A stretch of 64,000 nucleotides of DNA, from contig NZ_JAYESJ010000001.1 of assembly GCF_034720595.1 (NCBI RefSeq), positions 2,692,001-2,756,000 of the forward strand. Direction: 5' to 3'. The translations under genes and the position numbers were made by a program. This document shows positions 58,135-61,598 of the stretch, piece by piece. The stretch is from Rhizobium sp. CC-YZS058. Its GTDB lineage: Bacteria; Pseudomonadota; Alphaproteobacteria; Rhizobiales; Rhizobiaceae. Position 1 is the first letter of the stretch. Each line of letters starts with the position of its first letter. The notes under the pieces are model-generated. The model searched no databases. It was not told the DNA's origin and was given only the letters and a program-made list of their open reading frames with translations.

Positions 58135-58509
58135 CGTCTAAACCTCTCGGATGGCGGAATGAGCTGTGCCGGAACGAGGCATGTTGTCGTTCCAGATTGT
58201 GGCAAAAATTCACCGCGTCGATGGCTTTTTCCGAGCAACGCCAGTTTCGCGCAACGTGGTTGACGCTTGGTTAACCTTTTTCACGCTTCGCTAAAGGTTT
58301 AAAATTACTTACCAAGTCATTGATCCTGCTCGTCTGCCTCTTGATACAGAGCCTGTCGCCCCGCCCTACGCGTTCCAGCCCTTCCCACCCCGTACCCCGA
58401 GGGTCGGAGCTCCTTCGATTCCGCGCGGCAGGGCTTTCGGATGGCGGTGTTTTTTTCTAAGAGGGGCGCCAGGATAAAGGGCGGCGGGGCCGCCGGTTCG
58501 CGAGGCGTC
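58135..58509. other. Divergent spacer between DUF1344 and aroC
   Basis: A 375-bp spacer without a gene. GGAACGA (58171-58177) and TCGTTCC (58187-58193) form a 7-bp inverted repeat 37 bp before the DUF1344 start, positioned like an operator. An AT-rich stretch (58268-58320) with a GGTTAACC palindrome lies in the middle and may hold the aroC promoter. Confidence 0.45.
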
Positions 58510-59610
58510 ATGTCGCACAATACGTTCGGTCACCTCTTCCGCGTCACCACCTGGGGCGAAAGCCACGGGCCGGCGCTCGGCTGCGTCATCGATGGCTGCC
58601 CGCCCGGCCTGCGGTTCACCGTGGCCGACATCCAGGCCGATCTCGACAAGCGCAAGCCCGGCCAGTCTCGCTTCGTGACGCAGCGTCGGGAAGAGGATCT
58701 GGTGCGGGTGCTGTCCGGCGTGATGCCGGAGGCAGAGGGCGACGGCCTGGTGACGACCGGCACGCCGATTTCGCTGATGATCGAAAACACCGACCAGCGC
58801 TCCAAGGACTATGGCGAGATTGCCCGGCGCTATCGCCCGGGACATGCGGACTACACCTATGATGTCAAATACGGCATCCGGGATTATCGCGGCGGCGGCC
58901 GGTCCTCCGCGCGCGAAACGGCGGCGCGGGTGGCAGCCGGCGCGCTGGCCCGGCGCGTGGTGCCCGGAATGACGGTACGGGCCGCGCTGGTGCAGATCGG
59001 CAAGCACAAGATCGACCGGGCGAACTGGGACTGGGCCGAGGTCGGCAACAACCCCTTCTTCGCCCCCGATCCTGAGATCGTGCCGGTCTGGGAGGCCTAT
59101 CTAGACGAGATCCGCAAGGCGGGCTCTTCGGTGGGTGCCGTGATCGAAGTCGTGGCCGAGGGCGTTCCGGCAGGCATCGGCGCGCCGGTCTATGCCAAGC
59201 TCGATCAGGACATCGCCGCCAATCTCATGTCGATCAATGCGGTCAAGGGTGTCGAGATCGGCAATGGTTTCGAGGCAGCCGCCATCACCGGCGAAGAGAA
59301 TGCCGACGAAATGCGCATCGGCCCTGATGGCAAGCCCGTCTTTCTCTCCAACCATGCCGGCGGCGTCCTGGGCGGTATTGCCACCGGCCAGCCGATCGTG
59401 GCGCGCTTCGCCATCAAGCCGACCTCCTCCATTCTGACCGAGCGGCGCTCGATCGATGCCGATGGCCAGGAGGTCGATGTGCGCACCAAGGGACGCCACG
59501 ACCCCTGCGTCGGCATTCGCGCCGTCCCCATCGGCGAAGCCATGCTCGCCTGCACCCTCGCCGACCACTATCTGCGCGACCGCGGGCAGACGGGACGGAT
59601 CTCGGGGTAA
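58510..59610 (+). CDS. aroC: Chorismate synthase
   Basis: A 366-residue FMN-dependent enzyme, last step of the shikimate pathway. It begins [20 protein letters not shown] (family N-terminus with His). [17 protein letters not shown] and [17 protein letters not shown] are the FMN/substrate signatures. The C-terminal [20 protein letters not shown] is conserved. The in-frame ATG at 58441 is rejected because homology starts at 58510. Confidence 0.98.
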
Positions 59611-59675
59611 CGGTAGGCGCAGCCGTTTACTTGCCGTGTGGGCGTGACGAGATCATCGACAGGGGCGCTTCGGCT

Positions 59676-60047
59676 TCATGATAGGCTATTCGAATTCCTG
59701 GCCTGAGCGATGAGAACAGGCAGGGTGTCCACAAGCGCTGGAATGCTCTGCTCGATTGTCGCCCAGATCGTTGCAAGATTGATCGTAGTGTGAGCATGGG
59801 CGATACGATTTCGCATGCCTTTCATGTTCCGCCAGGGGATTTCGGGAAAGCGCTCGGTGAACGACAGATCGATCTTCAGAATCCGCGCCGATGATTCGCC
59901 AACAAGCATCAGGTTGAAGAGAACGGCCTGGTAGGTTTTCTTGTCCGCAAAAAATTCGGAGCGATCGAGTGGCGCGCAGTATTCAAGCGCCTGAAGACTG
60001 GCCTCCTGCATGATGCGGAGATGGGCAACCGCGTTCAAAGAACTCAT
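59676..60047 (-). CDS. hepT: HepT-like (DUF86) HEPN RNase toxin, variant motif
   Basis: A 123-residue HEPN-fold protein of the DUF86 family, toxin of HepT/MntA systems. The RNase motif R-x4-H is intact in RNRIAH (Arg79, His84). The family's next key residue, the Tyr two positions after the His that the antitoxin AMPylates, is His86 here (HAH instead of HxY). Its start overlaps the antitoxin stop by 4 bp (ATGA). The rest of the helix pair (KTYQAVLFNLMLVGESSARI) is well conserved, so the gene does not look decayed. It converges with aroC. Confidence 0.85.
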   Translation of the reverse strand: MSSLNAVAHLRIMQEASLQALEYCAPLDRSEFFADKKTYQAVLFNLMLVGESSARILKIDLSFTERFPEIPWRNMKGMRNRIAHAHTTINLATIWATIEQSIPALVDTLPVLIAQARNSNSLS

Positions 60048-60325
60048 AAAGGAAGCGCTTCTTTCAACAGCTTCGTGCGCATATGTTCCGGAACATCCCC
60101 CGGCGTGAGTACGGACACTTCCGTTCCGAACAATTCTTCCAGTTCGATCTGAAGACCGCCAAGGTCGAAGAGGGTGGTGCCCGGGCGATCGTCGACGAGA
60201 AGCTCGATCTCGTTGCCCTCCACTTCGCCAACGGCACCGACGATCCTCGGATTGGACAGGTTGAAACGCCGTACCAGAGCGTGGACGGCTTCACGGTGCT
60301 TTTCAACGGCAACGGACGGCTTCAT
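60044..60325 (-). CDS. mntA: MntA-like nucleotidyltransferase antitoxin with lost catalytic motif
   Basis: A 93-residue minimal nucleotidyltransferase-fold protein, partner of HepT. The alignable core is complete (EIELLVDDRPGTTLFDLGGL and QIELEELFGTEVSVLTP). However, the GSxxRG loop is shortened to GAVGEVEGN, the DxD pair is Glu39-Ile-Glu41, and the third Asp of the family VDVxT motif is Ser71. It should therefore be unable to transfer AMP. The frame runs upstream to 60454, but homology starts at the ATG at 60325. It overlaps hepT by ATGA and lies 82 bp after the YcaQ-like gene. Confidence 0.8.
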   Translation of the reverse strand: MKPSVAVEKHREAVHALVRRFNLSNPRIVGAVGEVEGNEIELLVDDRPGTTLFDLGGLQIELEELFGTEVSVLTPGDVPEHMRTKLLKEALPL

Positions 60326-60407
60326 CGCGGTTCCAGAAGGTTGGGGGCGGCGGGCACACCATAATGATACGACTCTAGAACAGAAAAGCCTGAAATAAAA
60401 GTACTGC

Positions 60408-61598
60408 TCAACCCCTCGCTCCCTCCAGCCAGACCACCTCCCCCACCCCCGCAAAGCGGGCGATCCGGGCCAGTTCCGCCTCCAGGCGCTCCATCCGCCC
60501 GGCGCTCGTCCGCACGCCCTTCTCCCACCAGAGCCGCTTGACCTCGAGCGTGCCCTTCTTGCGGTTCGCCTTCATGTCGATCCGGCCGACCAGGCGGTCG
60601 CCCTCCAGCAGCGGGAAAACGTAGTAGCCGTATTCGCGCTTCGGCTCGGGCACGAAGATTTCGATTCGATAGGAGAAATTGAACAGGCGCTCGGCGCGTG
60701 CCCGGTCGCGCAGCAGAGGATCGAAGGGGCTGAGCACTCTGAGCCGCGCCGGCGGCTCCTTCAGCGTTGCGAGCGTTTCTGGAAAACCGGACAGCGCGTG
60801 GGATGCCCGGGGCCGGCTGCCATCGGCGGGCTCGATGACGACGGTCGTCAATTCATCCTGATGCGCCTGCACCCAGTCCCGCGCGGTCTCGGGCGAGACG
60901 AGCTTGAAGAAGGCCGCGATTTCGCCGTGGGTGGCAAAGCCCAGCCGCTCGAGCGCGGCCCGGCAGCACCAGTCGACGAAGCCCTCGCGGTCCACCTCGG
61001 GCAGCCGGTGCACGTCCGGCACCACCCGCTCTGTCAGGTCATAGACCTTCTGGAAGGCCTCGCGCCGGGCGATCGCCAAACGGCCAGTGCGCCAGAAATA
61101 TTCGAGCGCCGTCTTCGACGGATGCCAGTTCCACCAGCCGCCGGACGTGCGGCCTTCATGTTTGAAATCGCGCGCCAGAACCGGGCCCTTGGCCGTGATG
61201 TGAGCCAGGGTGTCGGCAAAGCTCGCCTCGAACGCCTCGCCCTGCCAGGTCCTCCAGCGGGCGAGGATCGATTGCTCCTCCTCCACGAAGCGGTGCTTCC
61301 AATAGCGGAAGAAGGCGGCCGGGATGATCGAGGCATCATGGGTCCAGTGCTCGAACAGCGCGCCGTCCTCTTCGAGAAGCTGGCGCAGCTGGTCCGGCCG
61401 ATAGGTCTGGTTGCGGGAAAACAGGATCATCTGGTGGGCCCGCTCCACCGTGGCGATGCTGTCCACCTGCACGAAGCCAAGCCGCGTGATGAGCGCGAGC
61501 AGCCCCGCCTTGTCGAGCGCCCGCCCAGGCGGATCGCTGAGCCCGGAACGATCGAGGAAGACGCGGCGGGCAACGGGATTGGTAAGGAGAATCGTCAT
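60408..61598 (-). CDS. Winged-helix YcaQ-like DNA repair protein
   Basis: A 396-residue protein of the winged-helix HTH_42 family. The N-terminal LGFVQVDSIATVERAHQMIL contains the family's Gln-x-Asp catalytic-type segment, followed by YDxx-like FEHWTHDASIIP. The C-terminal half carries the DPLLRDRARAERLF signature. Escherichia coli YcaQ/AlkX and Streptomyces AlkZ are glycosylases that unhook DNA interstrand crosslinks. The ATG at 61598 fits the family start; the open frame to 61766 does not. Confidence 0.85.
   Translation of the reverse strand: MTILLTNPVARRVFLDRSGLSDPPGRALDKAGLLALITRLGFVQVDSIATVERAHQMILFSRNQTYRPDQLRQLLEEDGALFEHWTHDASIIPAAFFRYWKHRFVEEEQSILARWRTWQGEAFEASFADTLAHITAKGPVLARDFKHEGRTSGGWWNWHPSKTALEYFWRTGRLAIARREAFQKVYDLTERVVPDVHRLPEVDREGFVDWCCRAALERLGFATHGEIAAFFKLVSPETARDWVQAHQDELTTVVIEPADGSRPRASHALSGFPETLATLKEPPARLRVLSPFDPLLRDRARAERLFNFSYRIEIFVPEPKREYGYYVFPLLEGDRLVGRIDMKANRKKGTLEVKRLWWEKGVRTSAGRMERLEAELARIARFAGVGEVVWLEGARG

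Follow-up and report, generated by a model that had tools for sequence, protein, structure and literature searches.

The best described relatives of the locus considered here are the type VII toxin-antitoxin pairs, in which a minimal nucleotidyltransferase (MNT) antitoxin AMPylates a tyrosine in the RX4HXY motif of a HEPN-domain toxin. For the HepT/MntA pair of Shewanella, it was reported that the D39E/D41E variant of MntA and the Y104A variant of HepT each stop AMPylation, and that Y82F stops modification in an archaeal pair (PMC7641770). Y104A HepT remains toxic, and D39E/D41E MntA binds the toxin like the native protein, as a hetero-octamer, yet neutralizes it less; the authors concluded that binding is not sufficient (PMC7641770). 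In Legionella, a single D48E or D50E replacement was reported to block modification, helix 2 of the MNT protein was described as the docking surface common to three solved complexes, and the authors regarded RX4HXY as unlikely to be the catalytic site (PMC11586414). Conservation of RX4H alone is therefore no proof of RNase use. Mutants of a few pairs are the basis on which AMPylation is weighed against complex formation as the essential step of HEPN/MNT systems.

Here we describe a natural pair in a window of 64,000 nucleotides (the whole stretch of DNA that was analysed) from the genome of Rhizobium sp. CC-YZS058 (4.77 Mb, 4 contigs). Both genes are on the minus strand: the MntA-like antitoxin gene comes first (60044..60325, 93 amino acids), and the gene of the predicted HepT-like RNase toxin follows directly (59676..60047, 123 amino acids), the antitoxin stop and the toxin start sharing a 4-base ATGA overlap (60044..60047). 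In the toxin motif RNRIAHAH (59790..59813), Arg79 (cga, 59811-59813) and His84 (cat, 59796-59798) of RX4H are kept, and the AMP-acceptor Tyr is replaced by His86 (cac, 59790-59792), which in a profile alignment with 5yep corresponds to Tyr104 of Shewanella HepT (Ala in the deposited structure 6m6w). The antitoxin is predicted to be a catalytically dead nucleotidyltransferase. Gly30-Ala31 (60233..60238) replaces the Gly-Ser of GSX10DXD, Glu39-Ile-Glu41 (60203..60211; gag at 60209-60211 and at 60203-60205 for the two Glu) replaces DxD, and Ser71 (tcc, 60113-60115) replaces the third catalytic Asp. A preliminary description of this DNA had already placed His86 at the acceptor position, with Arg79 and His84 remaining, and had reported all three catalytic carboxylates as lost (Glu39-Ile-Glu41 and Ser71); codons and profile alignments bear out both statements, and the Ser of the GS motif proves to be lost as well. 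The shortening of the GSxxRG loop that it mentioned is real here, by three residues, but is special to the window's species among the seven examined in the genus. Reannotation through a different alignment is ruled out, as the profile alignments to 5yep and 1wot fix both motifs.

The toxin belongs to PF01934 (HepT-like; 74.2 bits against a Pfam cut-off of 23.5) and scores under the cut-off of the NCBIfam HepT model (33 against 60 bits). The best Foldseek matches of its structural model (mean pLDDT 91) are type VII HEPN toxins (7ae6, 6m6u and 5yep), with probability 1.00 and E values of 0.009-0.02, none being below 0.001. For the antitoxin of the window, zero matches were obtained in Pfam (E up to 10) or NCBIfam, and Pfam likewise gave zero for 6/6 clade antitoxins tried, so antitoxins of this kind are easily missed. 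It does match the solved minimal nucleotidyltransferase 1wot, both by phmmer (6.8e-8) and by profile (2.6e-20), and with its predicted structure (pLDDT 86 on average, below 50 at loop residues 32-36) Foldseek places 1wot first (E 2.5e-6), followed by 6m6u, 6m6w, 7bxo and 8xeo, with E values of 0.005 and up for the Shewanella MntA complexes. The locus accordingly has a HEPN (PF01934) gene directly after a minimal nucleotidyltransferase gene, the latter recognized by fold and profile and not by Pfam. Fold, gene order and RX4H make the pair a homologue of HepT/MntA; because both defining type VII signatures fail, it is not filed as a working type VII system. Some clade antitoxins are named nucleotidyltransferase in NCBI records, and PADLOC models with the name PDC-S09 (PDC for phage-defence candidate) match the antitoxin of the window (60044-60325), with a best E of 2.2e-15.

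The pair is present in 7/7 genomes examined in the genus, without internal stops, with the same gap of -4 between the genes and behind the same AlkZ-like gene (Pfam having been run on the window's copy). The nearest named relatives at the locus are Ferranicluibacter rubi, from a Rhizobiaceae genus, and Rhizobium sp. strains of the PP, Leaf371 and DKSPLA3 kind. Several features of the surroundings were noted in passing. A sigma-70 scan of 59580-60480 found zero promoter-like sites; by eye, a conserved, promoter-like arrangement of TTGTAC (TTGTGC in G004), 16 bp and TATGAT (CATGAT in G001) lies upstream of the antitoxin in the six other genomes (G001-G006), and the consensus scan found no such site in the window. 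The gene after hepT in the window is aroC, on the opposite strand (58441-60047); at two other loci (L001 and L046) a gene of the ribB type is the next large one (PF00926/PF00925 in L001). Directly behind hepT in G001 (L001, 5803-6403) are a Gp49-like (PF05973) gene and an HTH_37 gene, likely a second toxin-antitoxin pair, which the ORFs behind hepT in G005 (L002) resemble.

Throughout the genus, the Arg and His of RX4H are present in 7/7 toxins, and residue 86 is His (in the window's genome, G000, and in G001 and G006) or Phe (G002-G005), never Tyr. Thr88 occurs in 7/7, at a position where canonical toxins have Asp or Glu. The full set of GSX10DXD and third Asp is found in 0/7 antitoxins: all read GA, six read ExE and that of G006 reads D-L-E, and the third Asp is replaced by S, Y or H. 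Among 14 distinct clade antitoxins, position 41 is Glu in every one, position 39 is Glu in 13 and Asp in that of G006, and the third Asp has become S, Y, H or L; antitoxin P0006 reads E-I-E. By analogy with published mutants, covalent toxin modification is predicted to be absent, and the single D-to-E result from Legionella would extend this to G006.

For comparison, HepT genes with a neighbouring MNT gene were gathered at 348 loci, which yielded 291 distinct pairs, identical pairs being counted once, and profile alignments supplied the residues at the motif positions. These loci came from relatives, the class, the order, the phylum, an additional family (around G822) and a scan of genome contigs; they are mostly the best-scoring part of the matches and form a non-random sample, genus loci were among those used to build the profiles, and 18 further distinct toxins for which no partner was found are left out. 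Within this sample, loss of both motifs is seen in 7/7 genus pairs and 0/284 others, which rules out chance or a one-off mutation. Because the genus pairs share kinship, the antitoxin loss counts once, and the 7/7 stands for a single event on the antitoxin side. DxD is intact in 283/284 outside pairs, the remaining one being a partial ORF. At the acceptor position, the 284 outside toxins have Tyr (272), a gap (8, in truncated or broken frames), His (2; L301 and L253), Asp (1; L328) or Arg (1; L168). The toxin of L328 has a scrambled start, the whole motif of L168 is degenerate and L253 encodes a more distant HEPN; all four Tyr-replaced toxins sit beside intact antitoxins. Across the 291 pairs, every loss of DxD was accompanied by loss of Tyr, and Tyr loss alone is occasionally tolerated; given the intact antitoxins of L301 and L253, whose toxins are normal apart from the His, Tyr loss therefore needs no DxD loss. 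The preliminary description had proposed testing whether Tyr-to-His in the toxin co-occurs with loss of DxD in its partner; Tyr loss does so inside the genus and does not at these two outside loci.

Searches with the individual proteins separated the clade along the same columns. Among the best 120 of 367 antitoxin homologues, the catalytic set is missing from each of 10 clade proteins, and GS and DxD are present in all 110 others (104 with the third Asp); in these 120, identity is 69-80% for 9 clade proteins and then, over full length, at most 60% (A1) to catalytic homologues. Among the best 120 of 6370 toxin homologues, 9 clade proteins have His or Phe, 110 have Tyr, and one outsider, P0131, has His. 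P0131 is the toxin of L301 (motif HGH), which beside its fully intact MntA is possibly an AMPylation-resistant toxin. The reverse of the window's pattern, Gly at the Arg of RX4H with His and the acceptor Tyr kept (GN..RHEY), was observed in 50/247 distinct pairs (for example L059, L175 and L176). A viral-contig scan with a canonical toxin returned 3 loci.

Both genes of the clade are under purifying selection. By NG86, dN/dS is 0.04-0.19 for the antitoxin (21 genome pairs) and 0.14-0.37 for the toxin (the 17/21 pairs with computable dS, synonymous change being saturated in 4); pooled within toxin types, the values are 0.11 and 0.22, the antitoxin being the more constrained. The most constrained part of the toxin is the RX4H helix (residues 72-90, pooled within-type dN/dS 0.044). 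In the antitoxin, taken over all pairs, it is the N-terminal helix (0.049), not helix 2, followed by residues 48-67 (0.055), the loop region of residues 22-47 (0.12), the tail (0.17) and residues 68-78 (0.34). Residues 48-67 (60125..60184; helix 52-66 with its flanks) correspond to the toxin-docking helix of solved MNT-HEPN complexes, and here 10 clade antitoxins agree at 85% with the consensus of 23 catalytic homologues, against 35% in the stretch 22-47, to which the nucleotide-binding loop belongs; agreement is 50-58% in the N-terminal helix, in the third strand and in the tail. By this pattern, the antitoxin appears to have shed its chemistry and kept the toxin-docking helix. The loop region is still constrained in the genus, and some use of it may be left. 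dN/dS is unable to separate a toxin from a harmless RNase.

Catalytically intact HEPN/MNT pairs exist elsewhere in the same genomes. G001 (L176/L353), G002 (L352) and G003 (L350) carry a second pair of another subfamily (GN..RHEY), with Tyr, GS, DxD and third Asp all in place, so a genus-wide loss of MNT catalysis is ruled out and the loss therefore belongs to this locus, not to the genus. G004 (L351) has a second pair with the intact antitoxin type whose toxin is broken by a deletion, part of it missing; this is real decay in the genus, unlike the window locus. In the window's genome, a PF01909 search returned two other nucleotidyltransferases, one within a 970-codon frame and one a small orphan MNT with GS and DxD (C1:2756863-2757168, about window coordinates 64863-65168 and thus just outside), and a search for another HepT found none besides the window's. 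Rescue by another AMPylator was considered for this small MNT and rejected: it has only 29-32% matches in 4/6 of the other genus genomes and none in 2, and without close genus relatives it does not explain the genus.

We consider it most probable, at about 0.6, that the antitoxin is a pseudoenzyme neutralizing a still-active RNase by direct binding, which would amount to a shift from type VII in the direction of type II, compensation having made binding sufficient, and we favor this over domestication of the HEPN protein. The common ancestor of the genus loci would have had an antitoxin already without its nucleotidyltransferase site (GA for GS, ExE for DxD, and S, Y, H or L for the third Asp) and still with the helix that MNT proteins use for docking on HEPN toxins; in the toxin, the RX4H residues of the RNase site would have been kept and the acceptor Tyr replaced, most simply twice, by His and by Phe. 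The toxin would then most likely be an active RNase held in check through direct antitoxin binding, with part of the allele specificity putatively in the last ~17 residues of the antitoxin. RNase activity, toxicity and antitoxin binding are what we infer for this pair, and it is the retained docking helix that suggests type II-like neutralization by binding. Judged by analogy, the Shewanella D39E/D41E MntA, which binds yet neutralizes less (PMC7641770), would count against an antitoxin that acts by binding only.

Domestication is an unlikely explanation, although several observations fit it. HepT would be non-toxic at its native level and serve as a regulated RNase or RNA-binding protein, the MntA relic being a structural subunit. 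The pair occupies one chromosomal locus beside ordinary genes in 7/7 species, a DNA-level search of 72,556 plasmid records gave zero matches, HepT relatives are patchy (any match in 23/141 genera), and domestication of MNT-HEPN modules is discussed by Anantharaman et al. (PMC3710099). Toxin relatives as such are found on many plasmids, P0131 matching 1486/72,556 records. A domesticated protein is harder to reconcile with the ATGA overlap, the antitoxin-first order and the constraint on RX4H, all of which are kept, and the two divergent, recombining toxin types resemble a toxin locus, not a housekeeping gene.

The preliminary description had also offered a self-resistant variant. Here a toxin no longer open to AMPylation would act as a free toxin or defence effector beside a leftover antitoxin gene. 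We now regard this as quite improbable, as the toxin's partner has no AMPylating site, and no predicted MNT activity, to resist; moreover, a leftover would drift, and the antitoxin is the more constrained gene (0.11 against 0.22, pooled within types). The toxicity of Y104A HepT in the laboratory (PMC7641770) and the Tyr-to-His toxins beside intact antitoxins at L301 and L253 speak for it. Scarcely better, and if anything a shade worse, is slow decay, with both genes relics on their way out: the catalytic motif is gone and the loop of the window's antitoxin is three residues shorter than its sisters', but there are zero stops in 7 genomes, dN/dS is low in both genes, and the truly decaying second pair of G004 looks different, its toxin being partly lost. 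The occurrence in 7/7 genomes and the purifying selection agree with the earlier reading of a functioning clade with matched loss and a kept ATGA overlap, as opposed to decay. Least credible of all is a pair that still transfers a nucleotidyl or some other group, using ExE as weak metal ligands and a different acceptor such as Thr88; the retention of Glu41 (14/14) and Glu39 (13/14) in clade antitoxins whose third Asp drifted, and of Thr88 in 7/7 genus toxins, might suggest this, but against it stand the joint alteration of GS, DxD and third Asp, the reports that D39E/D41E in Shewanella (PMC7641770) and a single D-to-E in Legionella (PMC11586414) stop the reaction, and the pLDDT below 50 of loop residues 32-36.

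In quick trees that came with long-branch warnings, the genus toxins form one group (SH-aLRT 99) split into a His branch (93) and a Phe branch (90), and the genus antitoxins likewise group together (100), at the end of a long stem. The His codons (CAT/CAC) and the Phe codon (TTC) are each one base from a Tyr codon and two from each other; on this basis the simplest account, by parsimony and not as proof, would be that Tyr was lost twice, as His and as Phe, in a lineage whose antitoxin was already non-catalytic. The antitoxin tail (residues 77-93, 60047..60097) is of one of two sequence types, GDVPE- or GGLP-, which track the toxin type in 7/7 genomes. The antitoxins of G001 and G005 are near-identical up to codon 79 of 96 and then differ abruptly in their tails, as do their toxins. 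The tree of the first 79 antitoxin codons is weak, and monophyly of the Phe types is not formally rejected there (AU p 0.067); the tree of tail and toxin, with a long-branch warning for G005 and G000, places G005 with the Phe types (100/99) and rejects its grouping with G001 and G006 (AU p 0.0006). P0006 with its presumed toxin partner P0126 looks like the reciprocal recombinant. In the tree of the AlkZ-like neighbour, G000 is widely separated from the six other genomes, although it has a His-type toxin; the two toxin types are therefore old or have been exchanged. Exchange fits tail-mediated recognition, and physical adjacency of tail and toxin alone would also favor their co-segregation. We propose only tentatively, at slightly less than even odds, the complete scenario of a type VII system reverted to binding-only (type II-like) neutralization at a single genus locus, comprising a pseudo-nucleotidyltransferase antitoxin, a Tyr shed twice, and two old toxin types exchanged between species with the C-terminal tail setting allele specificity.

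Selection has kept, genus-wide, a pair with AMPylation-stopping kinds of change in both partners. The locus may thus be viewed as a natural experiment on the conversion of an enzymatic antitoxin into a plain binder, in seven natural alleles and two toxin types. Among the open-access titles and abstracts retrieved, none concerned a natural HepT/MntA pair lacking both motifs. With the HepT/MntA pair of S. oneidensis (SO_3166/SO_3165; 5yep, 6m6u, 6m6w and 7bxo; PMC7641770), the window pair shares gene order, the HEPN and minimal nucleotidyltransferase folds and RX4H. It lacks that system's two signatures, the AMP-acceptor Tyr and GSX10DXD, and at 93 amino acids its antitoxin is too short for the C-terminal alpha4 helix of S. 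oneidensis MntA. The Legionella pneumophila HEPN-MNT pair (8xeh, 8xeo and 8yuf) is similar in that its MNT is short, without alpha4, and docks via helix 2; unlike the window antitoxin, this MNT was reported to have the catalytic motif and to AMPylate Tyr105 (PMC11586414). Class II HEPN/MNT pairs, as given in PMC7641770, combine a HEPN without RX4HXY with an MNT that has GSX10DXD, whereas the window pair has RX4H and no GSX10DXD. The nearest relatives are canonical MKPS-type MntA/HepT pairs (Methylobacter, Rhodoferax, Nitrosomonas, Photorhabdus and others; L003-L036), with 45-56% identity for the antitoxin and 37-44% for the toxin (11 aligned) and, in most, the same 4-base overlap; unlike the window pair, these have HGY toxins (HAY in L047) and antitoxins with GS and DxD, the third Asp being Glu in L032. 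The kinds of change introduced in the laboratory as Y104A, Y82F and D39E/D41E (as reported in PMC7641770) are found here in both partners at once, and, unlike those mutants, the genus has kept them through species divergence, which implies a compensation that the mutants lack.
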